Source of the DNA: Myxococcales bacterium 68-20
GTDB lineage: Bacteria > Myxococcota_A > Polyangia > Polyangiales > Polyangiaceae
NCBI GenBank assembly: GCA_001899635.1
Contig: MKVQ01000016.1
Coordinates: forward strand, 88,559-152,558
Direction of reading: 5' to 3'
Length of the DNA: 64,000 nt
The notes beneath the pieces were generated by a model, which was not told the origin of the DNA, searched no databases, and saw only the letters and a list, made by a program, of their open reading frames with translations. Positions 1 through 13,321 of this stretch are shown in pieces. Each line of letters starts with the position of its first letter. Position 1 is the first letter of the stretch. A program made the translations under genes and the position numbers.

Positions 1-482
1 GGCGGTGTTGGAACGGTTGCTGGCGGCGGCTCAGCGAGCTCCTCTGGCTCGGCGAGCTCCTCCGGCTCAGCTCGATCCTCTGGCTCGGCTCCCTCCTCTG
101 GCGGGCGGGCCACGGCGATCATCATCGCGAGGACGACGGACGTCGGCTTGGTGACCTCCTTGCAGCTCTGCCGTTCGACACGGACACTCCGCTCGCCGAG
201 GGCCTCCCCGGACGCGTCCTTCATCGCGAGCGTGACGACGAATCCACGGTCGTCCGCCCGCACCGTCCCTTGCACGAGCAGCTCGGGTGGAACGTCGGAC
301 GGGGATTCTCCGAGACGTGCTTGTGTCGCCTCGATCATCTCCTGTCGCGACGGGCAGCCGTCGGGCGCGGACCAGGAGAGATCGAAGGGCGCTCCGTTCG
401 CCGACGCCGGCCATAGCGCGACGGCGAGCGCGGTCTTGCTCGCCAACGCCCACGCACGCGTGCCGTTCAGCCTTGTGGGCAC
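1..482 (-). CDS. Exported 'APxxCP' protein, first gene of a fourth cassette (D), truncated by window edge
   Basis: Not in the ORF track as a real gene, but the minus frame starting at GTG 482 gives a signal peptide (ALASKTALAVALWPASA) followed by FDLSWSAPDGCPSRQEM. This matches the start of the mature protein in cassette C (51152-52180, LELTWDAPEGCPSSSF), and more loosely those of cassettes A and B. A second conserved Cys follows in the stretch RVERQSCKE, as in the paralogues (EAASCSAL, DSESCEEA, RSADCATV). The frame then enters a Glu/Pro-rich linker built from an 18-nt repeat (about 20-100) and leaves the window. By position it would be the first gene of another ECF-sigma cassette extending left. 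Function unknown; the paralogues end in beta-rich, outer-membrane-like C-termini. About 160 codons are visible. Confidence 0.7.
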   Translation of the reverse strand, partial: MPTRLNGTRAWALASKTALAVALWPASANGAPFDLSWSAPDGCPSRQEMIEATQARLGESPSDVPPELLVQGTVRADDRGFVVTLAMKDASGEALGERSVRVERQSCKEVTKPTSVVLAMMIAVARPPEEGAEPEDRAEPEELAEPEELAEPPPATVPTP

Positions 483-543
483 CCGTGACCTCGGCGCCCG
501 ATGGTACTCGACCGGATGACCAAGCCGAAACGGAACGCCCCCC

Positions 544-570
544 GGCGCGCTCGGCGCGCTCGGCGCGCTC
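544..570. repeat. Three tandem 9-bp units in gene-free stretch 483-842
   Basis: GGCGCGCTC is repeated three times head to tail. The surrounding 360 bp between the cassette D first gene and the IgGFc fragment shows no gene I can support; the ORFs listed there are shadows. It should contain the cassette D promoter, but I cannot identify one. Confidence 0.6.
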
Positions 571-842
571 AGCAGTAGGTCGTGGGAGCCGAGTCTGAAA
601 CGCGAAAGGCGCCCCCGGCGCGGCGGTGCGGGCGGGCTGTCGTCCCACCAGGGTCGTGGAACGGGCACGTCCGGAGGGGCCTCTGCGTGCGGTTGGGACG
701 CGAGCCCCTGATTCAGCGCGTCGCCGTCCGGTGGTGACGCGGCGACCGGGGCAGGCGCCGGCGGTTGAGCTCGGCAGCCCGGCTCGTCGGCTCGCCCCGG
801 TGTAAGAGCCGGAGGTCGCCCCGCCTCGACGCGCTGACGATC

Positions 843-985
843 GGATAGTGCGTCCCGGCGCCACCGTACGGATACATCCACGTGACTCCGACCGGGACAT
901 TGCTCTTCAGGCGGAACGCGTCGCCGATGCCGGAGCTGAAGAGCTGAAAGTCCGCTTCGAGCGCGGGCTCCGCCTCCGTCGGGCC
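843..985 (-). pseudogene. Orphan fragment of an IgGFc-binding-domain gene
   Basis: A 143-bp segment matches 3188-3330 inside cassette A's IgGFc gene with about four mismatches seen by eye (roughly 97% identity). Its minus-strand translation differs from the intact protein by one residue (TEAEPALEADF versus TEAKPALEADF) and covers the stretch ending in YPYGGAGTHYP. Homology stops abruptly on both sides, and no start, signal peptide or remainder of the gene is present. The high identity points to a recent duplication or recombination rather than decay of an old paralogue. Confidence 0.85.
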
Positions 986-1006
986 CGGATACGCACTGCT
1001 ACGCGC

Positions 1007-1864
1007 TCATTTTAGGATCGACCAATCAACAGTGTGATCGCCATCGATGTCATCGAGTCCAGGGAGGCAAATGGAGTACTGTAGCGAGCCAAAACGTCGA
1101 TTGACGAGCAGATACAGGATTCCGAAACAGACCTGAGACCGCTGTTCGTCGACGTAGAGAGCGTGCAGTTGGAGATCTCCGTCCTTGGCGCGAGGATTGC
1201 CAATTACTTGAAACGGGTAGACGCGGAAGGTGTTCTTGCCATGAACGAAGGTGCCGGGTTCGGTACCGGAAAGTGCGTAACCATCTCCATCTACCTTGAA
1301 TCGAATGGGGGTGTTTGGCGGAATCGGGATGTCGAAGGCGGGCAGCGCAATCGACGCGGTGTAGGAGCCGTGAGTTTCGCTCCCCTGCCCAGTAGCGGGC
1401 TCGTCCGCGAGATCGTTTGCCGCTGTGCTCTCGTGGAAAACGTCGGTCATGGTGACGTTGCCATCATCGTCGATATCGACGTAAAGCCAGAGTATCCACA
1501 AGCGGTCCGGAGCGACGGCCCAGAACTGGTAGAGTACCTTGGACTCGAACGGTTGACGCTCGTAGATGAATGCCGGCAGCGTCGCTCCATCGATCTCGAC
1601 GGTCCCGACGTTGTTGGTGAACGAGAAAGCTCCGACGACGTTGGAGCCCCGGCCGGCAATCGTGAGCGCGAAGTCCGTCTCGAGCGAGCTGGACGTCGGG
1701 CCGAGAGCGATCCTCGTCGGAGTCGAGTCGTCCACGCCAGGCGCGTCCAGTCCCGCATCCATCGTAACGTCGGACACATTTTCGGCCGCGGGCGTGCTGA
1801 GCGCGCTCTCTTTGCAGCCGGCAACGAGCGCTACTATTGAGACGAGCCTTGTAAACCAACGCAT
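1007..1864 (-). CDS. Hypothetical lipoprotein, 285 aa
   Basis: The start is placed at ATG 1864, preceded by a GAGG ribosome site, rather than the longer ORF start. It gives a lipoprotein signal, MRWFTRLVSIVALVAGCKES, with the lipobox VAGC. An acidic Asp/Ala-rich linker follows (AGLDAPGVDD), then a beta-strand-rich body of about 230 residues with two Asp-rich stretches (YVDIDDDGN, DDIDGDHT) that could bind calcium. No family recognised. Its codons are visibly more AT-rich than those of the neighbours. It sits between cassette A's terminator-like hairpin and the orphan IgGFc fragment, so it is not part of a cassette. Predicted to be anchored in the outer or inner membrane. Confidence 0.75.
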   Translation of the reverse strand: MRWFTRLVSIVALVAGCKESALSTPAAENVSDVTMDAGLDAPGVDDSTPTRIALGPTSSSLETDFALTIAGRGSNVVGAFSFTNNVGTVEIDGATLPAFIYERQPFESKVLYQFWAVAPDRLWILWLYVDIDDDGNVTMTDVFHESTAANDLADEPATGQGSETHGSYTASIALPAFDIPIPPNTPIRFKVDGDGYALSGTEPGTFVHGKNTFRVYPFQVIGNPRAKDGDLQLHALYVDEQRSQVCFGILYLLVNRRFGSLQYSICLPGLDDIDGDHTVDWSILK

Positions 1865-1977
1865 CGATAATCCTCTTCGCAAAAGTCCATGGGCGATATC
1901 CCTCCCATCGCCCAGCAGGTGGTGCACAGCCCGGCTGAAGTAACGCTCGGATTTCGCGCATCCGCGCGCCGTACCAA

Positions 1978-1996
1978 GGCGCAACTCAGTTGCGCC
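1978..1996. promoter_or_regulatory. Perfect 9-1-9 palindrome upstream of the lipoprotein gene
   Basis: GGCGCAACT-C-AGTTGCGCC is a perfect dyad about 115 bp upstream of the lipoprotein start at 1864. The size and symmetry suit a dimeric repressor operator, but no regulator is identified. A second dyad, TGGGCGAT/ATCGCCCA at 1890-1914, lies in the putative leader. Confidence 0.4.
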
Positions 1997-2043
1997 GATC
2001 CTGAAAAGGTAGATGGCCCTGATCGGATCGGTGGCAAAGACCG

Positions 2044-2084
2044 AGCATTGCGCTCGCCTCGCCCGTCAGGGCGAGCGCAATGCT
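2044..2084 (-). terminator. Long hairpin after cassette A
   Basis: A perfect 15-bp stem (AGCATTGCGCTCGCC with its reverse complement) encloses an 11-nt loop, 60 nt beyond the stop of the last cassette A gene. There is no clear U-tract, so it is a terminator-like hairpin rather than a textbook intrinsic terminator. Confidence 0.6.
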
Positions 2085-2143
2085 GGTCAATTCAAGCGAT
2101 CACGGCCATAGCTCACGTCGACGCGCGCGGTCGCCAATGGCGA

Positions 2144-3928
2144 TCACTTCACCAACGAGAGCGGCGTCTCGACGAGCTTGCGGAACGCCATGCCGCCCGG
2201 ATACGCGTAGCTCGCGGCCACGCCCCAGCCCCAGAGGGTCGCGGAGAACGCCCCCTCGCTCCGCATCCGCTGGAGACCCGTCCTGCACTGCTTGTCCCCG
2301 AACGAGTCGCCGGGTTTGAACCGGCGCGACAGATCGACACGCCTGTATTCGTACTGCCCCGCGTTGTCGATCGGCTTCCAGTCCGGCAGGTCGCCGGCGC
2401 ACTCGAGCCATACGTCCTTGAAGTCGCCGTGCGTCTTCTTGCGGACGATCACGAGCGAGTGCTCGGGGTACGTGGAGTCCGCGTAGAAGCTGTAGGAGCT
2501 CATGTACTGGCCCGTCGGGACGACGTTGACGAACTCCGGATCGCCCATGCTGTCGTATGGGATGCATCCCGTCATGTGCATGCCGAGGTAGAACGGATGT
2601 TCGGCGTCGCGTGAGCGGACGACGAAGGCGTCGTTCGTACGTGCAGTGAAGAGCGCCAGCTCGCCCGCCTCGAGCTTGAGCGGCGCCCCCGGAGGCTTGA
2701 CGGGATCGTACTCGAGCTCCGTGCCGTCGCGACCGCCGACCATGCGGTACCAGACCTCCTCGGCGGTGTTCTTGGTGCGCGGCCGGTAACCGACGCCGAC
2801 GTACTCCGACCCCCATTGTTCGAAGGGCGGGATCTGCTGCGCGAGCGTGTCGCAAGTCCCCACCCCCGTCGGCAAGAACACGCACTCCTGTCCGCCGAGG
2901 GTCACCGTCGGCTTGTTGGAGAAGACGAAGCTGCCGGTGAGCTCCTGGCTCTGGACGATCTGCGCGAACTGGCCCTTCGACAGCATGATCTTCGCCGGCA
3001 TCCCGGCCGCGGCGCCCGTGAAGCCGTCTCCACTCCCGACGTCCTTGTTCCCGAGGATCGTGACCTCAGTGTCATCCTCGGCAGCGAAGATCTGCGTCGC
3101 CGGCGTTCCAAAGCCCGATGTCTCCCATCCGTTGACGACGACGTGCTCCTTCGCCCATGCGCTCACCGGCAAGACGAGCGTCGCCGTCGGATAGTGCGTT
3201 CCGGCGCCACCGTAGGGATACATCCACGTGACGCCGACCGGGACATTGCTCTTCAGGCGGAACGCGTCGCCGATGCCGGAGCTGAAGAGCTGAAAGTCCG
3301 CTTCGAGCGCGGGCTTCGCCTCCGTCGGGCAAGGGCTATGCTCGCTTCTATCCCAGCTCTCGCGCTGTTTGGTGGGGTCCCAGTCGGCGACGAAGAGGAT
3401 CGCGCTCTCTCCTGGGGGGATGGGTCCTGCGAGCGGCTCGAGATCGGTGCTGTTCGGGACGGCTCGGAAGAGCGCACGCGACACGTCGAGCTCTTCACCT
3501 CGCAGCTCGAGAGACACCGTGGCCGGCTTGTTCGACGCGTTGACGACGAACGTTGCGAAGCACGAGGTGATGTCCGGTCTACGGTGCCTAGGCTTCGTGA
3601 AGTAGAAGTCGCAACCGTTCGAGCTTCGGTCGGCCTCCGCCGCTGCGCACGGCTCCTGACACTTGGCGGCGCCGCAGGCGAGATCGTCGGCGCACGTCTC
3701 GAGCACGCCGCCCGTACACGAGTCGATGATCGACCGACCGTCGAGCGAGCACTGGCGGAAACATGCCTCTGCGTCCGGAGCTCCTCCCTCGGGCTCCGTC
3801 TCGAACGTTCGATCGTCCTGGTTGAAGCCGCCGCGATCGTCACCGCAGGCCGCGATCAGCGCGACGATGAAGCCAGAGGCCGAAGCCACGGCGCCGAACG
3901 CGCCGAAGGAGAACCGCGCGCGCCTCAT
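2144..3928 (-). CDS. IgGFc-binding-domain lipoprotein, cassette A
   Basis: 594 aa; the start at ATG 3928 overlaps the RCC1 stop by 4 nt. It has a signal peptide with lipobox-like IAACGDD and then a short Cys-rich module (ACFRQCSLDG to CEFYF-type end). A long beta-rich body with the landmarks of the IgGFc-binding N-terminal family (PF17517) follows: PTATLVLPVSAW, AEDDTEVTILG, GQFAQIVQSQELTGSFV, EQ(I)PPFEQWGSEYVGVGY and DPEFVNVVPTGQY. Proteins of this family bind or adhere to extracellular ligands in animals; bacterial members are uncharacterised. Last gene of cassette A; paralogues at 22573 and 42929. Likely surface-exposed. Family assignment is firm, role inferred. Confidence 0.88.
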   Translation of the reverse strand: MRRARFSFGAFGAVASASGFIVALIAACGDDRGGFNQDDRTFETEPEGGAPDAEACFRQCSLDGRSIIDSCTGGVLETCADDLACGAAKCQEPCAAAEADRSSNGCDFYFTKPRHRRPDITSCFATFVVNASNKPATVSLELRGEELDVSRALFRAVPNSTDLEPLAGPIPPGESAILFVADWDPTKQRESWDRSEHSPCPTEAKPALEADFQLFSSGIGDAFRLKSNVPVGVTWMYPYGGAGTHYPTATLVLPVSAWAKEHVVVNGWETSGFGTPATQIFAAEDDTEVTILGNKDVGSGDGFTGAAAGMPAKIMLSKGQFAQIVQSQELTGSFVFSNKPTVTLGGQECVFLPTGVGTCDTLAQQIPPFEQWGSEYVGVGYRPRTKNTAEEVWYRMVGGRDGTELEYDPVKPPGAPLKLEAGELALFTARTNDAFVVRSRDAEHPFYLGMHMTGCIPYDSMGDPEFVNVVPTGQYMSSYSFYADSTYPEHSLVIVRKKTHGDFKDVWLECAGDLPDWKPIDNAGQYEYRRVDLSRRFKPGDSFGDKQCRTGLQRMRSEGAFSATLWGWGVAASYAYPGGMAFRKLVETPLSLVK

Positions 3929-5376
3929 GGGAGCTTCACCTCCACCGGCTGGAGCACGCTTCCTTTCGGAAGTCCGGCGCCGAGCTGGCCGTAGAAGTTG
4001 CTTCCCCAGCAGTACACTTTGCCATTCGTCAGGATTGCACACGTCGAATAAGGCATGACCTTCACCTCGGCTGCCGGAGCCGGGAGACCGACGACCTGGA
4101 CGGGTTCGAGCGCGAACTGCTTCGTGCCGTTCCCCGCCTGGCCGGCATTGTTGAGTCCCCAGCAGTACACTGCGCCGCTCACCGACGTTGCGCACCAGCG
4201 ACGCCTGTCGAGATACGAAACGTTGTTCTCCCTCACGGACACCGATTGCGACGTTGCGATGCGCGTGATCGGCTCGGGAGTGTCGACCGCGATCGGCAGC
4301 GCACGTGCCAACGAGCCCGCGTTGTCGACATCGTTGCCGCCCCAGCACCAGCCGATCCCGTTCGCGACGGCGCACGCCTGATCGGTAACGGTGTCGATCA
4401 TCGAGACGTGGTCGAGCGCCACCTTCGCGGGTACCCCGCTGTAGTTGAGCGCGGTCGGGCGTCCAATGCTGCCGTTGTAACCCCAGCTCTTGAGCGTACC
4501 GTCGTCGTCGAGCACGAAGGTCGCGACCCCGAGGGCGATGTCCTTGGCTCCGAAGGCGCGCTCGATCGTCTGCGGCTGAGCGTTGAGCTCCGACCGCGAG
4601 ACGCCGACGCCGAGCTGCAGGTAGGAGTTCGAGCCCCAGCAGACCACGCTCCGATCGCGGAGGATGGCGCACCCGGCGCCGTCGTAGCTGCTGCTGCTGA
4701 ACGCGACCTTCGTCGCGGGACCAGGCAGCGGCAGCCGAACGGGCGTCGCTTCCACCGTCTGCGTCGACGCCTCGCTCTGGAGGAATGGGCCTCGTCCCCA
4801 GCAGAAGGCCGAGCCATCGCTGTCGACCGCGCACGTGTGGTCGAGCGCCGTGACCTTCGACAGTCCCGACACGCGCACTGGAACCGGACTGTAGCCGCTC
4901 GTGGCGGGGCGCCCCAGCTGCCCCTCTGCGTTCGCTCCCCAGCATGCCACGGTGCCGTCGTGGAGCAGCGCGCAATAGCCCTCGTCGTTCAGAATGGGGG
5001 AGGAGGACGTCGTGGTGGTCGTCGAGAGCGCGATCGCGCAGGGGGGCTCCTTGCACTCGATCGGCAGCGGCGCGCTGCCTTTGACCACGACATCCGCGAT
5101 GCCGGCGTCGATGACGTCTTCTCGATCGGCCTCGGGAGCGGCATCCGCCGAGCCGTCCGCGTCGCGAGGGTGGGGCTCTCGCGCGTCGCCGTCGCTGCTC
5201 GAGCAGCTCGTGCTCACGGCGACCACGGTCGCGAGGCTCGTGACGAGCGCGAGCAGCGCGGGACCGCGCGGGACGAATGGGCGACGCGTTCGCCGAGCAG
5301 CATCGGCGTCGCGTGGACACGGTTCAGCGACGCTGGACCGAGCCTCCGCTTCAAGGAGTCGTCTTGTGGTACGCAT
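3925..5376 (-). CDS. RCC1-repeat lipoprotein, cassette A
   Basis: 483 aa from ATG 5376; the start codon lies inside the preceding gene, a 26-nt overlap also found in cassette C. A basic N-terminus with a hydrophobic segment (LLALVTSLATVVAVSTSCSS) suggests a lipoprotein. After an acidic linker come RCC1-type repeats, recognisable by units such as TVACWGANAEGQLG, SVVCWGSNSYLQLG and KVYCWGSNFYGQLG, spaced about 50-55 residues apart. These predict a seven-bladed beta-propeller used for protein-protein or ligand contacts. Bacterial extracellular RCC1 proteins have no uniform function. Downstream neighbour is the IgGFc protein (4-nt overlap). Confidence 0.87.
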   Translation of the reverse strand: MRTTRRLLEAEARSSVAEPCPRDADAARRTRRPFVPRGPALLALVTSLATVVAVSTSCSSSDGDAREPHPRDADGSADAAPEADREDVIDAGIADVVVKGSAPLPIECKEPPCAIALSTTTTTSSSPILNDEGYCALLHDGTVACWGANAEGQLGRPATSGYSPVPVRVSGLSKVTALDHTCAVDSDGSAFCWGRGPFLQSEASTQTVEATPVRLPLPGPATKVAFSSSSYDGAGCAILRDRSVVCWGSNSYLQLGVGVSRSELNAQPQTIERAFGAKDIALGVATFVLDDDGTLKSWGYNGSIGRPTALNYSGVPAKVALDHVSMIDTVTDQACAVANGIGWCWGGNDVDNAGSLARALPIAVDTPEPITRIATSQSVSVRENNVSYLDRRRWCATSVSGAVYCWGLNNAGQAGNGTKQFALEPVQVVGLPAPAAEVKVMPYSTCAILTNGKVYCWGSNFYGQLGAGLPKGSVLQPVEVKLP

Positions 5377-6670
5377 GGCGGGCTCCGATTGCCCAGAGGT
5401 TTTGGTTCGAGGTGCCGCGGATCCTGTAGAACGGCGCATTGACCTGCGCGCCGCTGCGCGAGAGCGTCGAGACGGAGAACGTGCCGTCCTCGCTCTCGCG
5501 GAGAACGAGCCCCCACGATGTGAACCACGTCTCGCCGTCACCTCGCCAGAGCGCGCTCGCTCGCCTCAAGTAGGAGGCGGCCATGCTGTCGGCGATCTTC
5601 ACTGGGACGAGCGACTGTTCGAACGAATATCCATCGTCCGTGACGCGAATCGTCGTCGCGTAGGCGTCCTCGAATGAAGTGCCCTTCACTCGGTTGTAAA
5701 GCGCGACGTATTCGGTCGTCGACACCGGAGCGATGTCGACGAGCCACCCGCCTTTCCCTGGGCCGCCGATGAAGAGCGTCCCCGGACGTTCGGCACACGG
5801 CGTGTTGAAGTTGGTCGAGACGACGCCGTCGGCGACGCGCTCCCAGCCGGCAGCCGACTTCCGGACGACGAGCGGGCAGCTGAGGTACCCCCGAACGCGA
5901 GCGCCGACGAACCAGACGTCGTTCGGACCGCTCCCGTGGACGGACGCAAAGAAGATGTGCTCGTTGTCTGCCTCGAGATCGTCGGCGACGTTGACCGCGG
6001 CGAAGCTACCGCTGGCCGGATCACGGTGGAAGATCGTGTTGCTGTAGTACGCATAGACGTCTTCGGCGCCCGTTCCCCAGACGCCGAGCGTCGTGATCGG
6101 CTGCCCACCGCCGTACACATCAATCGGATTCCCGTGACTATCCGTGTGGCCGGCGATGTTGTCCGGGAGGGCCTGCTTCGTCCACGTCCACGTGCCACCG
6201 GAGCGTTTTCCGTGAAAGACGTGCGACGGTCCGACGGTGAAGTACACCTCGTCGGCGTTCGGGGCGTAGATGCGACCAGCGAACGTGCCGATGGGCGGCT
6301 CATTCTGCGTGCCATCGTCGATGTACTGCCACGTGTTCGTCGCCTTCGTCCACTCGAGGACTTTGATGCCCTCGATCCGGCTCTCGGCGATCGCGAAGGC
6401 CACCTCCTCGAAGGGCGCGATGTCACGGAAGACGAGGTCTTCGTCCGGGAAGCCGGTAATGCACCACCCGGCGGGGCTGCAGTCGGGAAGACGACTATCG
6501 GGGACGTCGACGTCGCTGTCTTCATCGCCGCCATCGTCATCACCGCTGTCGGGGACCTCCGACGGCGGCGGCGGATCGGTGCCGACCGAAGGTGCGTCTT
6601 CCGAGCGCGCGCAGGCAGAGGCGATCGCGACCGATGCAATGGCGGACGCGAGGACGATGATCGTTCTCAT
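5351..6670 (-). CDS. Beta-propeller lipoprotein 2, cassette A
   Basis: 439 aa, start ATG 6670 (4-nt overlap with the gene before). Lipoprotein signal MRTIIVLASAIASVAIASAC, then a strongly acidic Asp/Pro linker (DSGDDDGGDEDSDVD). The body carries dispersed propeller motifs of the type seen in myxobacterial 'GPNDVWxVG' proteins: GVWGTGAEDVYAYYSN, SGPNDVWFVGA, IRGTSNQNLWAIG. It ends in HAYHKTTP, the end shared with cassette C's paralogue (46001-47278). Predicted exported beta-propeller; ligand unknown. Confidence 0.8.
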   Translation of the reverse strand: MRTIIVLASAIASVAIASACARSEDAPSVGTDPPPPSEVPDSGDDDGGDEDSDVDVPDSRLPDCSPAGWCITGFPDEDLVFRDIAPFEEVAFAIAESRIEGIKVLEWTKATNTWQYIDDGTQNEPPIGTFAGRIYAPNADEVYFTVGPSHVFHGKRSGGTWTWTKQALPDNIAGHTDSHGNPIDVYGGGQPITTLGVWGTGAEDVYAYYSNTIFHRDPASGSFAAVNVADDLEADNEHIFFASVHGSGPNDVWFVGARVRGYLSCPLVVRKSAAGWERVADGVVSTNFNTPCAERPGTLFIGGPGKGGWLVDIAPVSTTEYVALYNRVKGTSFEDAYATTIRVTDDGYSFEQSLVPVKIADSMAASYLRRASALWRGDGETWFTSWGLVLRESEDGTFSVSTLSRSGAQVNAPFYRIRGTSNQNLWAIGARHAYHKTTP

Positions 6671-7863
6671 GGTTTTCCTCCGAGCGACAACAGCGCTCCT
6701 CGTCCGGCGATCCAGACCTTTCCCGGCGACGGGATCCAGATGCGCTCGAGCCGCGGGCGTCGTCCGCCGAGGCCGGCGACCTTCACGCGCCTCCAGGCGG
6801 TGCCGTCGTAGTGAAAGACGGTGCCCTCGTCTCCGGCGATCCAGATGTCGCTCGGCGACGAGCCGGCGATCACGCGGAGGTGCTGCTTCGTCGGCACTTC
6901 GTCGTAGGTCTCGAAGAAGTGTGGATCCCCGCGCCAGCGACGCACCGTGCCGGTCGAGCCGACGGCCCAGACGTCGTTCGGCCCGGCGGCCCAGACGCTC
7001 TCGAGCGCGACGAGCGTGTCCGTCTCGAAGGCGGACAGCGTCGGCTCGTCGGCCTCGGCGTTCGTGACGCGGAACGCGGCACCTCGCGGCCCGACGGCCC
7101 AGACCTCGTCGGCGGAGCGACCGTGGATTCCATAGACCACCCCGCACGGGACGGTCGACCCGCACTTGTCGAGCGTCGCCGGCGTGAGGGCGAAGCTTCC
7201 GTCGGCGGCCCGCCGCAATCGCCAGAGGCCGCCACGGCGCTGCGTCGTCGCGCCGATCCAGAGTGACGTCGACTCCGCGTGAGCCCACGACGTGTAGACG
7301 CGCCCTTCGGCCCAGGCTGGATGAAGCTTCGCAGAGCCGAAGAGCGACCAACCACCAGCGGATGGAGCTCCCGCGTCGGTATCGAGCCTGCGCGTGTACA
7401 AGCGCTTCGGATTCTCGAAGGCGATCTCGGCCTCGCCGCGTACCCAGAGCGCGAGGAACGAATACTGCGTGTCCGTCACGGACGGCTTCCAGGACGTGCC
7501 ATCGAAGTGTGCGGCCGCGCCGGCGGAACCGACCAGCCATGCATCGGTCGGCGACCGGCCCGCGATCGCTCGAACGTGAGTGCGCACATCCAACATCTCC
7601 GGCGTCGCGACTGCGCCGAAGAGGGGACTTTCGCAGAGCGCGTCGTCGGAGCACTCGTCCGGGTAGTACTCGCAGTCGTCGGCGCAGACCGAGGCGTCTT
7701 CGCCGGTCTCTGCGTCACCACCTGCGTCGGGCTCAGCCGACGGCAAAGGCGTGCTCGCGTCGTCCGAGAGAGAGGTGGGCGTCTCACCGTCGGTCGCGCA
7801 TGCTGCCAGTATGGCGAGCGCGCACACAGTCCCGGTGACGGCAATGAACCAGGTAGTCTTCAT
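6667..7863 (-). CDS. Beta-propeller lipoprotein 1, cassette A
   Basis: 398 aa from ATG 7863, which overlaps the Cys-rich gene's stop by 4 nt; the ORF's upstream Met codons lie inside that gene. Lipoprotein signal ending LAILAACATDG, acidic linker, and a small Cys pair region (CADDCEYYPDEC). Repeated propeller blades follow, with AIAGRSPTDAWLVGS, GRSADEVWAVGP, AAGPNDVWAVGS, AGSSPSDIWIAGDEG and PSPGKVWIAGRG. The end, LLSLGGKP, is shared with cassette C's paralogue (VLSLGGKP). Predicted surface or secreted propeller; partner unknown. Confidence 0.82.
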   Translation of the reverse strand: MKTTWFIAVTGTVCALAILAACATDGETPTSLSDDASTPLPSAEPDAGGDAETGEDASVCADDCEYYPDECSDDALCESPLFGAVATPEMLDVRTHVRAIAGRSPTDAWLVGSAGAAAHFDGTSWKPSVTDTQYSFLALWVRGEAEIAFENPKRLYTRRLDTDAGAPSAGGWSLFGSAKLHPAWAEGRVYTSWAHAESTSLWIGATTQRRGGLWRLRRAADGSFALTPATLDKCGSTVPCGVVYGIHGRSADEVWAVGPRGAAFRVTNAEADEPTLSAFETDTLVALESVWAAGPNDVWAVGSTGTVRRWRGDPHFFETYDEVPTKQHLRVIAGSSPSDIWIAGDEGTVFHYDGTAWRRVKVAGLGGRRPRLERIWIPSPGKVWIAGRGALLSLGGKP

Positions 7864-9110
7864 CGCGGCGGTCCTCCAGCATCCCGAAGCTCGTCGCACG
7901 GCTCGACCATGCATTGACCGTTGACGCATGCCTGACCGGCGATGCCGTCACAGACGACCCCGCACCCACCGCAGTTCTTCGGATCGGATGAAAGGTTGGT
8001 CTCGCAACCGTCATCGCGGCTGCCGTTGCAGTCGCCCCAGCCGGAGTTGCACGACCAGTCGCAACTTCCGTGGACGCAAGCCGCGATGGCGTGCGGCGCG
8101 TCGCGGGGACAAGGGGCCCCGCACGCGCCGCAGTGGTCCGGGTCCGAAGTGAGATCGCGGCAGTTGCCCATTCTCTCGACCTCGACGCCGCCTTGGGTCA
8201 CGGTAGCCCCGCAGAACGTCGTTCCCTTGGGGCACATGCACGCCGGGATGGCCCCGGCGATGCCCAGTGCCATCAGATCGCACGTCATGCCGTCCAGGCA
8301 TCGATTTCCGCACGTTCCGCAGTTGTCGTCGTTGTTACTGAGGTTGGTCTCGCAGCCGTTGTTTGGATTGAGGTCACAATCGCCCCAGCCGGACTTGCAT
8401 TTCAGCTTTCCGCACGCGCTCTCGAAGCAGCCGAAGTACGTGTTCGGCTGCGCCTCGCGGGTCCCGTCACCTTCGGGCGGACAGGCGTTGCCGCACGCAC
8501 CGCAGTTCTTGTCATCGTGGGACGGCTCGAGGCATTCTCCGAGGTCGGGATTGCCGAAGAGCCCTCCGCAGTAGAGCTCGCCCGGCTTGCAGCCACACTG
8601 AAAATCAGAAGTAAGAAGCCCACGGTCGATACACGGCTTGTCTGCGGGGCATTTATTCCCGCAGTATCCGCAATTGTCATTACTAAGAGGCTTCGCCTCA
8701 CAGCCGTTGTCCGGAACGCCGTCGCAGTCGAGCTCAGTCGCGCTGTTGCAGCTCAAGACGCAGCGGCCGTCGGCGCACATGGAGTTTTTCGACGGGCACT
8801 TGTTCCCGCATTCGCCGCAGTTGTTCAGATCCGTGAGGAGATCGACATCGCAGAGGAACTGCGAGGTCGGACACGTAGTGTGGCCCGGGGGACACCGGTT
8901 CGACGGGCAATAGGACCTGAGGTCGTTTTCTTCCCCGGTGACCGCGGCGTCAGCCTCCGGAACGACGAAGACGTTTCCGCCGTCGGACGGAATCTCTTCG
9001 CCGACACGAACCGACTGCGAACAACCCGAAGGAGCGGCAGCGGATATACAAAGAAGCAGAACCGCGCCTACCGCAGCGGCCTTGCCATTCAATCGATCAA
9101 TCCTCGTCAC
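7860..9110 (-). CDS. Cys-rich NCGxCG-repeat lipoprotein, cassette A
   Basis: 416 aa. The signal peptide ends in SAAAPSGCSQ (lipobox-like). The rest is built of repeats of about 45-55 residues with paired cysteines: NCGECGNKCP, NCGYCGNKCP, NCGACGNACP, NCGTCGNRC, HCGACGAPCP and NCGGCGVVC, alternating with WGDCN..GCETN. All Cys look disulfide-ready in an exported protein. Proteins of this type are common in myxobacteria and, as I recall, often carry misleading database names; I see no enzyme signature. Overlaps both neighbours by 4 nt. Confidence 0.82.
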   Translation of the reverse strand: MTRIDRLNGKAAAVGAVLLLCISAAAPSGCSQSVRVGEEIPSDGGNVFVVPEADAAVTGEENDLRSYCPSNRCPPGHTTCPTSQFLCDVDLLTDLNNCGECGNKCPSKNSMCADGRCVLSCNSATELDCDGVPDNGCEAKPLSNDNCGYCGNKCPADKPCIDRGLLTSDFQCGCKPGELYCGGLFGNPDLGECLEPSHDDKNCGACGNACPPEGDGTREAQPNTYFGCFESACGKLKCKSGWGDCDLNPNNGCETNLSNNDDNCGTCGNRCLDGMTCDLMALGIAGAIPACMCPKGTTFCGATVTQGGVEVERMGNCRDLTSDPDHCGACGAPCPRDAPHAIAACVHGSCDWSCNSGWGDCNGSRDDGCETNLSSDPKNCGGCGVVCDGIAGQACVNGQCMVEPCDELRDAGGPPR

Positions 9111-9898
9111 GGTGAACCTCCGACGAGTGCGTCGAGACGGGTGAGATGAGCCGAGCTCGGATACCGAGCGCGAAAGGCGTCGGCTCGCGCGCGTGATTCG
9201 CCCCTTCGTCCGAGCCGGACGAGCGCGTCGATCGCGACGATTTCGCGCTCCTGGTAGAGCGCTCCATGCGGAAATCGCAATGGATGGCCGTTGGCGAGCT
9301 CCAGCGCCTGCGCCGGATCCGACTTGAGCGCGGCGCGCGCGCGACGCAGATAGCTCACTTCGGTCTCGCTCTTTTCGGCGACGGCGGGCTCGCCCGGAAG
9401 CTGACTCGGGGGAGCGGGCTCCACGGGCAACGTCGGCTCCACAGGCAATGCGGGCTCCGCCGGCAATGCGGGCTCCTTCGATGGCCCCGTGAGCTCGCGC
9501 GGAGCGACGACGCGAACGGGCGGACGTGTCGTCGGCAGGAGCGTGGGCTCGTGCGTCGAAAGACGAGCGGGGCGAGTCGGCTCGTTCGCCAACGTCACGC
9601 GTTCGGATGCGACGACCGAACGACGCTCCTCCTTCACGCTCGCGACGCGATCGTCCTTCGACGAGATTTCGAAGACGCTGATGCCGAGCACCGCAAGCGA
9701 CGCACCGATCAACGGAAGGATTCGATGGATCCCGCGCGTCGCCTTCGCAGCCGCGTAGCCCTTCGATGCCGGCGAAGCGTTTTCGAGCCAGTTGTCGAAC
9801 CGATCTTCGAGCCGACGAAGCTGCGCATCGTCGGGATCGCTCCGCCCCGAACGCAGGAGCCGCTCGAGCGCCTGTTCCTCTTCTTGGCTGGTGCTCAT
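9107..9898 (-). CDS. Single-pass TPR-like membrane protein, candidate anti-sigma factor, cassette A
   Basis: 263 aa. A charged N-terminal domain of about 58 residues (predicted cytoplasmic) is followed by one membrane segment at about 59-78 (ILPLIGASLAVLGISVFEI), a Pro/Glu-rich linker and a C-terminal helical module (ARAALKSDPAQALELAN to RLGRRGESRARADAF) that looks like a TPR pair. Position just after an ECF sigma gene with a 4-nt overlap suggests an anti-sigma role. No HxxxCxxC zinc anti-sigma motif is present, so the assignment rests on topology, context and the conserved architecture in cassettes B and C. Confidence 0.68.
   Translation of the reverse strand: MSTSQEEEQALERLLRSGRSDPDDAQLRRLEDRFDNWLENASPASKGYAAAKATRGIHRILPLIGASLAVLGISVFEISSKDDRVASVKEERRSVVASERVTLANEPTRPARLSTHEPTLLPTTRPPVRVVAPRELTGPSKEPALPAEPALPVEPTLPVEPAPPSQLPGEPAVAEKSETEVSYLRRARAALKSDPAQALELANGHPLRFPHGALYQEREIVAIDALVRLGRRGESRARADAFRARYPSSAHLTRLDALVGGSP
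9417..9470 (-). repeat. Three 18-bp tandem units inside the anti-sigma-like gene
   Basis: Units beginning GGCTCC and ending GGCAACGTC/GGCAATGCG encode the linker series PALP(A/V)EP. The copies are nearly identical, so the periplasmic linker could change length by slippage without a frameshift. Confidence 0.75.
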
Positions 9899-10485
9899 TT
9901 CGATTCCTTCGACATTCTGGAGAGCATCGCGAGCGCTTGTTTCTTCGCGGCGGCGAGGCGCGAGTACCCAGTCGCCACGGGACAGCCGACGATCTCTGCG
10001 ATCTCGGTCATCTCGAGGTGCTCGAGCTCGTGGAGGACGAAGACCGCGCGCTTGTCCTCGTCCAGACGAGCGATGACCTGCGCGAGCTGCCGACGCGCAT
10101 GGAGACGGTCGGCCTCCCCGCTGTCCGCCGACGCCGCGAGCTCGGGGACTTCATCGACGAGGACCTCGCGGTGGATGCGAAAACGCCGCCGGTAGCCGGC
10201 GGCTACGCGGACGGAGATCCCGTAGATCCACGCTCGAATCGAGCTCGACCGTTCGAGCTGCGCGAGCTTTTGAAAGATGATGATGAAGACCTCTTGGCTG
10301 ACATCCTCGAGGTCCCGCTCCGCCACGCCCTGATACCGAAGCGTCCGCCACACGAAGGCGCCGTACTGTCGAACGATCTGGCGAGCGGCGGCGTGAGCTT
10401 GCATGGCGACAGCGTCGACCGCGTCCGCGTCGACCGCCGATGCGTCCCCGAGATCGGGAACAGTCGCTCCTGTAGCCCAGGTCAT
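9895..10485 (-). CDS. ECF-family RNA polymerase sigma factor, cassette A
   Basis: 196 aa. Region 2 is visible around residues 38-95 (YGAFVWRTLRYQGV, DLEDVSQEVFIIIFQKL, IRAWIYGISVRVA) and region 4 around 135-185 (LDEDKRAVFVLHELEHLEM, EIAEIVGCPVATGYSRLAAA). The length suits a minimal ECF factor. It follows the first cassette gene by 34 nt and overlaps the candidate anti-sigma gene by 4 nt. It probably directs transcription of its own cassette, but no promoter motif could be assigned. Confidence 0.92.
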   Translation of the reverse strand: MTWATGATVPDLGDASAVDADAVDAVAMQAHAAARQIVRQYGAFVWRTLRYQGVAERDLEDVSQEVFIIIFQKLAQLERSSSIRAWIYGISVRVAAGYRRRFRIHREVLVDEVPELAASADSGEADRLHARRQLAQVIARLDEDKRAVFVLHELEHLEMTEIAEIVGCPVATGYSRLAAAKKQALAMLSRMSKESK

Positions 10486-10519
10486 TCCCGGGAGCAGTGC
10501 GATGACGGTGCGGTCACTC

Positions 10520-11494
10520 TCAAAAAAAATCGAGCGCGACGCCGAAAGAGCCGATCCCCGTCACCGGTGAGCCGCGGTACAGGGACCGCTCGACCCGACG
10601 GTCGTCGAGGACCGTGAAGTCGCTCCGCTGAGGAGTCGCCGCGAAGCCGATCGCGGCGAAGGCGTGGACGCGCTCCCCGAGCCTGTACGTTGCGCTCGCC
10701 TGCGCCAGGCCCCCGAACCTGACCGCCATGCCGCTCCGATCTTTGCCGAAGCCGCTTCCCCACGCGACGGCGAGCTCAGCCTGAGGTCCGATGCACGCCG
10801 TCATCACGAAGCGTCCGGCCGGGATCGTCAGCGGACATACGCCGAGGCCAAACATCGTCCGGAAGAGCCGCACGGTTCGCCCTTCGGGCACCGACTCACC
10901 TTGGCCCCAGAAGAACGCATCGGCGATCAGAGGCCAGAAGCTCCCCGGCACGAGAACGACGGACGCATGAGCTCCGCCTCCTACGCCTCCGGAGGAGCTC
11001 ATGTCGACGGCCGCGCTCGGACCGAGCTTCCCGGTCGAGTGCCAGGGCACCCGACGCCTCTCTCGTTCGTCCGCCAGCTCCTCCGGAGTCGGCGGAAGAT
11101 CGATCATGAGGGCCAGCGCGAGGACGAGTGACTCCGATGCCTCCTCGCAGCTCTCGCTGTCGATCGTGAGGTCACGGCGCCCGAGATGGCGGCCGCTCGG
11201 CGTCGCAAGCGCGATCCGTGCAAGCCACTGAGGCGCAGCATCGGCTCTCTGGATCTCCACGCGAAGGACGCGATCGGCGTGCGCTTGGTCGGCGAATGCA
11301 CGACGCGCGAGCGAGCGCTCGACGTCCTCGATCAGCTCCGACTCCGAAGGACACGCATCTGCCCCCCGGCCCCGCGTCCACTCGAGAAGCACCAGCGATC
11401 GCGGTTGCTCTTCGGCGCCTTCAGCGATCCCCGTCGTGGCGAGACACGTGAGCGGAAGAGCAAGAAGGCACGACCACCACTGCCGTGCACGCAT
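10520..11494 (-). CDS. Exported 'ADACPS' protein, first gene of cassette A
   Basis: 324 aa from ATG 11494, chosen because it starts a clean signal peptide (WWSCLLALPLTCLATTGIAEGA); the ORF's further 220 residues upstream are antisense to sixA. The mature N-terminal domain (VLLEWTRGRGADACPSESE, with a second Cys in DSESCEEASE) matches the paralogues in B, C and D. The C-terminal half is glycine/aromatic-rich with alternating strands and ends in Phe (VALDFF), as outer-membrane beta-barrels do. Unknown function; perhaps a sensor or pore that feeds the sigma/anti-sigma pair. Confidence 0.75.
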   Translation of the reverse strand: MRARQWWSCLLALPLTCLATTGIAEGAEEQPRSLVLLEWTRGRGADACPSESELIEDVERSLARRAFADQAHADRVLRVEIQRADAAPQWLARIALATPSGRHLGRRDLTIDSESCEEASESLVLALALMIDLPPTPEELADERERRRVPWHSTGKLGPSAAVDMSSSGGVGGGAHASVVLVPGSFWPLIADAFFWGQGESVPEGRTVRLFRTMFGLGVCPLTIPAGRFVMTACIGPQAELAVAWGSGFGKDRSGMAVRFGGLAQASATYRLGERVHAFAAIGFAATPQRSDFTVLDDRRVERSLYRGSPVTGIGSFGVALDFF

Positions 11495-11605
11495 GAATCG
11501 GCAGGACGATAGCAGCTCGCACTGGAGCCCGCCCGCGTTCTCCGTGGCGGTAGCTTCTCCCCATTCGGTGGATGGGTGGACGGCCGAACGTCGATTGGCG
11601 ATAGG

Positions 11606-12169
11606 ATGCGCAGCGTGAAGCTCTATGTGATGCGCCACGGGCCTGCGGAGGACAACGCACCGACGGGGCGCGACGAAGATCGTGCCCTGACGCCCGCAGG
11701 CCGAGAGCGAACCCGCGCCGTCGCGCGCGCCTTGCTGGCAGCAGACGAAGCGCCGCTCACGATCATCGCGAGCCCCCTCGTCCGTGCGCTCCAGACCGCG
11801 GAGATCGTCGCCGCTGTGACCGATCTGGAGAAGCGGGTCCGCGAGGCGAAGGAGCCCGGCGGTGCATCCGGCGCGGTCGAGATCCGGCGGGAGATGGCGC
11901 CCGGAGGTGATGCGGTCGGCCTGATCCGCGAGCTGGTGCAGAGCGGCCGCAAGCGCGCCATGATCGTCGGCCACGAACCCGACCTCTCGATGCTCGTAGC
12001 GCGCCTGGTGAACCGTGCCCCTGAGCAAGGGATGCTCAAGTCGATGGTCGTGGGCGTGAAGGTCGAGCCAACACCGGCGGATGCGGCCAACGGCCGATCG
12101 GCGAGCAGCGTGAGCGCTGCGCTTCGCTTCATCCTCGACCCGAAGTCGCTCCACTGGCAGCGCGACTGA
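11606..12169 (+). CDS. sixA: SixA-like phosphohistidine phosphatase (histidine phosphatase superfamily)
   Basis: 187 aa. The catalytic RHG motif is in KLYVMRHGPAED near the N-terminus, and the second active-site His in AMIVGHEPDLS. Conserved Arg/Thr positions lie in ALTPAGRERTRAVA and SPLVRALQTAEIV. SixA family enzymes remove phosphate from phosphohistidine. The start could also be GTG 11615. The gene is divergent from cassette A with about 110 bp between the starts, so both promoters should lie in that gap. Confidence 0.82.
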   Translation: MRSVKLYVMRHGPAEDNAPTGRDEDRALTPAGRERTRAVARALLAADEAPLTIIASPLVRALQTAEIVAAVTDLEKRVREAKEPGGASGAVEIRREMAPGGDAVGLIRELVQSGRKRAMIVGHEPDLSMLVARLVNRAPEQGMLKSMVVGVKVEPTPADAANGRSASSVSAALRFILDPKSLHWQRD

Positions 12170-12237
12170 CCACGCCGGCCACGCTCCGTGCTGCGGCGCT
12201 GCCCCTCCGGAGGCTCCCGGTCAAGCACTTCCGCGTA

Positions 12238-12307
12238 GGGTCATCCAAACATGGCCTAACGACACTTCCTTACGCCGGATTCGGGCCATTTGGGGGGATT
12301 TGACCCC
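12238..12307. repeat. Imperfect 70-bp inverted repeat in the sixA/SprT intergenic region
   Basis: The left arm (GGGTCATCCAAACATGGCC) and right arm (starting GGGCCATTTGGGG and ending TGACCC) are complementary apart from a few insertions, around a loop of about 26 nt. The 222-bp gap 12170-12391 is notably less GC-rich than the genes beside it. It also holds a TTGACA hexamer at 12348 and a short GGGAC-CT-GTCCC dyad at 12358-12369. It could be a terminator for sixA or the remains of a small palindromic element. Confidence 0.5.
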
Positions 12308-12391
12308 GCATTCATGTGGCGGTAAATACAGGATAAATTGGGGTTCCTTGACACCTCGGGACCTGTCCCTTACCCCGCATAAGACCCCCCG

Positions 12392-13321
12392 ATGAGCGCG
12401 CGAACCTGCGTCCCCGAGCTCGATCAGTGGCTGGCTCCGCGCTGGTCACGCGGCGGCACGGGGGCCGCTCGGAGCTCGGTCGGGCGGGGCCGCTCGCTGG
12501 GGCCGATGCCCGCGGCGGCGATTCGCGTCCCCGAGCGGCTCAGCGCGCAGCTCGCGCTCGTCTTCCCTTCGGCGGCGCCGCAGTTGTTCGTTCACGAGGG
12601 CGCGCGCCAGGCGCTCGAGCGGCGGCTGAAGGCAGCTTGCCCGGGTCGTCCGGTGGTCCTCTCGATCACGGACAACCGCCACTCGATCATCTCACACGCG
12701 CTGAAGAACGGCGTCCTCCACGCCCGCGTCCACCACATGTTCCTGGATGCGCCGCCCCGGGTGGTCGACGCGCTCGTGCGCTACGTCACGCGTGACGACC
12801 GCGCGGCGAGCATTCTCGTCGGTCACTACATCGAGGCGAACGGCGCTCGCCTCGCTCGACGCCGGGCACGCGCCATCCCGCTCCACGCGAAGGGCGAGCA
12901 CCACGACCTGCTCTCGCTCTTCAACGACCTGAACGCGCGCTACTTCGACAACGCCTGCCACGCGCTCATCACGTGGGGCCGGCGCACGACGCGGAAGAAC
13001 GACGCGCCGCGCCGCGCGATCAAGCTCGGGAGCTACTCGAGCCTCGAGCGCTTGATCCGCATCCATCCCGTGCTCGATCGCGCCTGGGTGCCACGTTACT
13101 TCGTCGCGTACGTCGTCTACCACGAGATGCTCCATCACATGATCCCGTCGGCCCGCGGCAACGCGCGCCAGGCGAGCTCGAACATCGCATCCGCGAAGGG
13201 GCAGATCGCACGTCGCGTCCTCCACCCGCCGGAGTTCCTCGAGCGCGAGCGTCAGTTCCGCGGCTACGACCGCGCCCTCGACTGGGAGCGGCGTCACATC
13301 AATCGGCTTCTCAGCGGCTAG
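12392..13321 (+). CDS. SprT-like zinc metallopeptidase
   Basis: 309 aa. The zinc motif HExxH is present as VVYHEMLHHMIP near residue 245, preceded by a SprT-like region (LFNDLNARYFDNACHALITWGRRTTRKN) typical of SprT/Spartan-type folds. SprT-family proteins are zinc proteases; several act on DNA-protein crosslinks, while bacterial roles are mostly undefined. No signal peptide, so predicted cytoplasmic. The N-terminal 40 residues are low-complexity, and a start at the internal Met in GPMPAAAIRVPE is possible. Confidence 0.75.
   Translation: MSARTCVPELDQWLAPRWSRGGTGAARSSVGRGRSLGPMPAAAIRVPERLSAQLALVFPSAAPQLFVHEGARQALERRLKAACPGRPVVLSITDNRHSIISHALKNGVLHARVHHMFLDAPPRVVDALVRYVTRDDRAASILVGHYIEANGARLARRRARAIPLHAKGEHHDLLSLFNDLNARYFDNACHALITWGRRTTRKNDAPRRAIKLGSYSSLERLIRIHPVLDRAWVPRYFVAYVVYHEMLHHMIPSARGNARQASSNIASAKGQIARRVLHPPEFLERERQFRGYDRALDWERRHINRLLSG

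Follow-up and report, generated by a model that had tools for sequence, protein, structure and literature searches.

A 144-bp IgGFc gene fragment beside an intact cassette in Myxococcales bacterium 68-20, probably the fossil of a lost sister copy

Downstream of an intact gene for an IgGFc-like surface protein in Myxococcales bacterium 68-20 lies a short piece of DNA that is nearly identical to an internal part of that gene. The locus raises the question of how such a fragment came to stand there and whether it serves the intact gene. We addressed it in a window of 64,000 nucleotides, i.e. the whole stretch of DNA analysed, which spans positions 88559-152558 of contig C16 in a draft genome of 11.9 Mb and 52 contigs (G000). 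Of the named relatives, Labilithrix sp. ACE_MYX5 was the closest one found. Coordinates given without a contig name refer to the window, in which the following features are relevant.

741-840, minus strand: putative 3' flank of the lost gene with the greater part of its post-stop hairpin (101 columns aligned to C16:79461-79560, 84% identity)
804-818, minus strand: core motif CGACCTCCGGCTCTT, hallmark of this IgGFc 3' flank (three occurrences)
840/841, no strand: left junction between gene interior and hairpin, from comparison of the fragment with the flanks of cassette A and of the genes at C16:79573 and C4:526700
841-984, minus strand: the fragment, an IgGFc (PF17517) gene remnant equivalent to residues 200-247 of the cassette A protein
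984/985, no strand: right junction, putative end of the lost gene's 5' part, from ungapped comparison with 3301-3370
1007-1864, minus strand: orphan lipoprotein-like gene between fragment and cassette A, no Pfam or NCBIfam match
2140-8951, minus strand: core unit of cassette A (IgGFc, RCC1, two hypothetical genes, Cys-rich), which recurs elsewhere in the genome
2144-3928, minus strand: intact IgGFc-like gene of cassette A (PF17517 IgGFc_binding, E 5.2e-94)
3187-3330, minus strand: block of that gene matching the fragment (BLASTN)

The fragment and its intact counterpart

The fragment and the matching block of cassette A share 140 of 144 positions (97.2% identity, four mismatches, no gaps, BLASTN E about 1e-65), the longest exact run being the 82 bp at 888-969. 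An earlier note on this DNA had described a near-identical repeat of 143 bp at 843-985 and 3188-3330. The repeat is real; its coordinates were one to two bases off, and in that register, which is one base out, 32 of 143 positions agree when paired naively. The note's sharp edges are evident, homology to cassette A stopping abruptly on both sides, at 840/841 and 984/985. The fragment comprises 48 of 594 codons and keeps the reading frame (frame 1, minus strand) without stops; the open stretch of 97 codons continues into unrelated sequence and forms no complete reading frame. Two marks of a gene remnant are found here: homology to an intact gene, at 97.2% over 144 bp, and loss of one or both ends without a complete reading frame.

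In the cassette A protein the equivalent block (residues 200-247) directly precedes the PF17517 domain (residues 248-567). A structure model of low confidence (mean pLDDT 62, several stretches below 50) places strands at residues 223-233 and 236-238, and the proposal that the fragment encodes an exposed beta-rich part is only weakly borne out. The same low-confidence model gave no significant fold match, and a sequence search for solved structures found none.

The window contains three IgGFc genes, ending at 2144, 22573 and 42929. As the earlier note held, its complete paralogues are far more diverged, the other two complete IgGFc proteins being 37% and 49% identical to that of cassette A. The second-best genomic copy of the block reaches 87.5%, and all copies other than that of cassette A are at most 88% identical to the fragment. 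Divergence between fragment and cassette A amounts to 2.8% (95% interval 0.8-7.0%) versus about 14% between intact cassettes of the A group. The identity of 97% alone would not prove recency because intact A-group paralogues also reach at least 97% over 144 bp in two conserved stretches, around 2393 and 3590, though not in the block concerned; it is the comparison restricted to this block that shows recency. When polarised by paralogues, one of the four differences is derived in cassette A, two are derived in the fragment and one is ambiguous. Because they fall in both directions, the two sequences are sisters, each of which has changed since the split. Three of the four differences are synonymous (chance about 0.04 at random), four being too few to show selection.

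A hairpin on one side, an orphan gene on the other

The left flank, 741-840, differs from C16:79461-79560 in 16 columns, and its last 37 bp are identical. The matching sequence corresponds to the 3' flank of an intact IgGFc gene, that of the next cassette to the left, 9.8 kb away, and reaches to 13 nt past the first base of that gene's stop codon at C16:79573. In gene orientation the intact flank consists of the stop codon, a few bases and GAGGTCGTCAGC...CGACCTCCGGCTCTT. The core motif CGACCTCCGGCTCTT lies 35 nt past the stop codons at C16:79573 and C4:526700 as well as beside the fragment, and with up to one mismatch it occurs at these three places in the 2.45 Mb fetched around the full-length IgGFc copies. 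Genome-wide, a longer form of the motif has its whole core intact at the same three places only; weaker matches are mismatched in the core, and the reversed-pattern control yields 17 of that kind. At the fragment the hairpin reads TCGTCAGC..., the first bases of its 5' arm, GAGG, being replaced by fragment sequence.

At equal distance past its stop codon, the A-group gene at C4:526700 carries a related hairpin of high stability. Compared with shuffled sequences, this hairpin folds better (z -4.64); the one at C16:79573 does not clearly do so (z -1.13), and the one beside the fragment, in its present form, does not (z -0.17). A consensus terminator scan found no terminator-like site. We speak of a hairpin and not of a proven terminator because it lacks the T tail that the scan demands.

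Remains of the gene's own flanks, a third mark of a remnant, are present on the 3' side as the hairpin common to the genes at C16:79573 and C4:526700; on the 5' side none were found. Because the post-stop hairpin of such genes, minus GAGG, adjoins the fragment, the left border has the appearance of a deletion in which about 1.05 kb between the interior of an IgGFc gene and that gene's 3' hairpin were lost. The earlier note's recent partial duplication comes close to this reading. The evidence favours, however, a larger duplicate that was later cut down with its 3' hairpin still attached, since copying 144 internal bases alone would not have brought along an IgGFc 3' hairpin.

The interior of the fragment is 97% A-like, whereas the closest match to its flank belongs to a gene whose own interior is about 73% similar. 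Because the present 3' flank of cassette A differs from the left flank of the fragment, which resembles that of another gene, the lost copy was not a simple tandem copy of cassette A carrying its flank. Likewise, the duplicated flanks are not continuous with the parent copy, as they would be in a simple tandem duplication. The mismatch between interior and flank could reflect past conversion, or the hairpin type could simply occur within the A group too, as at C4:526700.

The intact gene of cassette A is followed by structures of its own. A very stable hairpin at 2026-2101 (z -4.73), about 40 nt past the stop codon, is probably the gene's own terminator or structural element. A palindromic element, GGCGCAACTCAGTTGCGCCGATCC, lies at 1976-2006; the genome has about 30 copies (22 exact) versus none in the reversed control, and some of them stand just downstream of IgGFc genes. 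An Rfam search over positions 1-13000 of the window gave no match.

On the right, 22 bases separate the end of the fragment from the stop codon of the orphan gene, whose 3' end marks the place from which the lost copy's upstream part would be absent. Neither 11 genomes of the same genus, nor the rest of its own genome, nor the genome contigs searched yielded a homologue of the orphan gene, and its interpretation as an insert from a known source was rejected on this ground. A consensus promoter scan returned one weak promoter-like site, at 1038-1009.

Origin of the fragment

Taking these data together, we consider it likely that the fragment is a gene fossil, namely a sister copy of the cassette A IgGFc gene that was cut down by deletion. 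IgGFc cassettes would first have spread through the genome, and a sister of the cassette A gene would then have stood directly downstream of cassette A, in the same orientation. Its 3' part, beginning at the equivalent of residue 248, may have been lost in a deletion of about 1.05 kb that reached some 13 nt beyond the first base of the stop codon; the interior of the gene would thereby have come to adjoin what is left of the 3' hairpin, a step supported by the two intact genes with such a flank. A separate event, seen only as the end of homology, would have taken the 5' part together with all sequence as far as the orphan gene. Left over would be 144 bp of in-frame coding sequence with about 100 bp of 3' flank. 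We infer the whole sister gene and the two trimming deletions from these remains. Two points speak against this reading: at the site there is no trace of the 5' part or of any other cassette gene, and the interior and the flank resemble different genes, as described above. The fragment itself is very probably without function. A search with 700-3400 in 37 relatives matched the IgGFc part and revealed no counterpart of the fragment with its flank.

Break repair that copied about 144 bases of the cassette A gene beside an existing intergenic hairpin would account for the sharp edges and the single block, whose template is 2.3 kb away. Microhomology at the borders, which the earlier note proposed to look for, is not visible at the left junction when it is compared with the flanks of surviving genes, and this too would suit a templated insertion. 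We nevertheless regard such an insertion as improbable: the copy would have to land by chance, and in the same orientation, beside a hairpin that is seen elsewhere only after IgGFc genes, and would also have to remove the first bases of that hairpin.

About equally unlikely is a footprint of gene conversion, in which a lost copy of another subgroup had its interior overwritten by cassette A, or the reverse, before it decayed. The A-like interior next to the flank of a gene only distantly alike inside would be explained in this way. Yet the ends of the tract would have to coincide with those of the fragment, no tract border being visible, and divergence within the A group is even, without long near-identical tracts outside the conserved stretches. 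Moreover, conversion is not required, given that the A-group gene at C4:526700 has the same type of hairpin.

It is hardly credible that the fragment acts as a donor or recombination site by which the 3' part of the cassette A gene is varied or looped out. The two blocks are direct repeats with an exact run of 82 bp, and from their coordinates recombination would excise 2,346 bp, comprising the orphan gene and the PF17517 domain from residue 248 on. If such a switch with loss of 2.35 kb and of this domain operated, which we think most improbable, some cells would be without this surface domain; a loop-out, however, is a one-way loss. Silent donor cassettes for antigenic variation are represented by pilS and vls. 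Like these, the fragment covers part of a surface-protein gene, is nearly identical to an intact copy and lies close to it. Unlike them, it is single, belongs to no silent-cassette array and has left no trace of a transfer to the intact gene. Among the best 40 candidates of a genome-wide DNA search with the whole cassette A gene, it is the single A-group fragment of this block, where several partial copies would be expected of silent donors.

A mosaic expressed gene is not seen either. The core of cassette A recurs at four other genomic sites (84-85%) and at a fifth with 78%; among cassette A and the first four, identity is about 85-86% along the whole length, in a star pattern in which no pair stands closer than the others. 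A sliding-identity scan of seven cassettes was even and gave no donor signal, and over the block cassette A is evenly diverged from its paralogues, without anomaly. The earlier note's donor segment for gene conversion thus finds no support, the A-group cassettes being without donor-like mosaics. As for an assembly artefact, the draft has 52 contigs and many repeats, but the four substitutions relative to cassette A, the 16 differing columns relative to the paralogous flank and the position inside a 437-kb contig make an error of this kind very hard to believe.

Turnover in a very large family

A whole-genome search with PF17517 gave 141 matches, with 138 full-length copies among the pieces fetched around them; the 2.45 Mb around all 138 served for the family and fragment scans. 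The same search in 57 relatives returned 0 to 47 first-look candidates each, and the IgGFc family is expanded in this genome, with far more copies than in any of them. Upstream of the 138 full-length genes, on the same strand and within 12 kb, are genes for an ECF sigma factor (120/138), a Cys-rich protein (126/138) and an RCC1 protein (124/138); hypothetical genes also belong to this upstream set. This very large set of sigma-factor-headed surface-protein cassettes, about 120 copies, is more striking than the fragment. A literature search for IgGFc-like families in myxobacteria found no paper.

Five further IgGFc fragments lie outside full-length genes in the 2.45 Mb fetched (59 to 455 bp, 74-95% to the best match), three of them following an intact copy on the same strand at a distance of no more than about 3 kb. 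With the fragment studied here included, four of six lie no more than 3.2 kb downstream of an intact copy and on its strand, against an expected share of about 9% (binomial P about 0.001, or 0.007 without this fragment, a rough and post hoc estimate). Their placement fits local copies that decay beside survivors. The largest, C48:255547-256001, is a decayed piece of 455 bp with stops, 83% identical to its best match and 1.5 kb downstream of an intact IgGFc copy.

Pseudogene remnants shortened by deletion are described for bacteria (e.g. PMC2916853, PMC5447742). Like such remnants, the fragment is short, cut at both ends and absent from relatives; it is unusually legible in that its surviving 3' hairpin fixes one deletion end almost to the base.

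For large paralogous families, birth-and-death turnover is an established concept. The IgGFc genes studied here conform to it in having many intact copies and a few fragments of differing age beside them; they differ in the exceptional size of the family (138 full-length copies) and its link to sigma-factor-headed cassettes. The fragment represents such turnover; it is a gene remnant of an ordinary kind, of which one side is well resolved. Taken alone it means little, being a young fossil of gene loss. It marks, however, one roughly datable event in a very large family that is still turning over, with copies deleted next to survivors, and this turnover bears on how the bacterium came to its about 120 sigma-factor-headed surface-protein cassettes.
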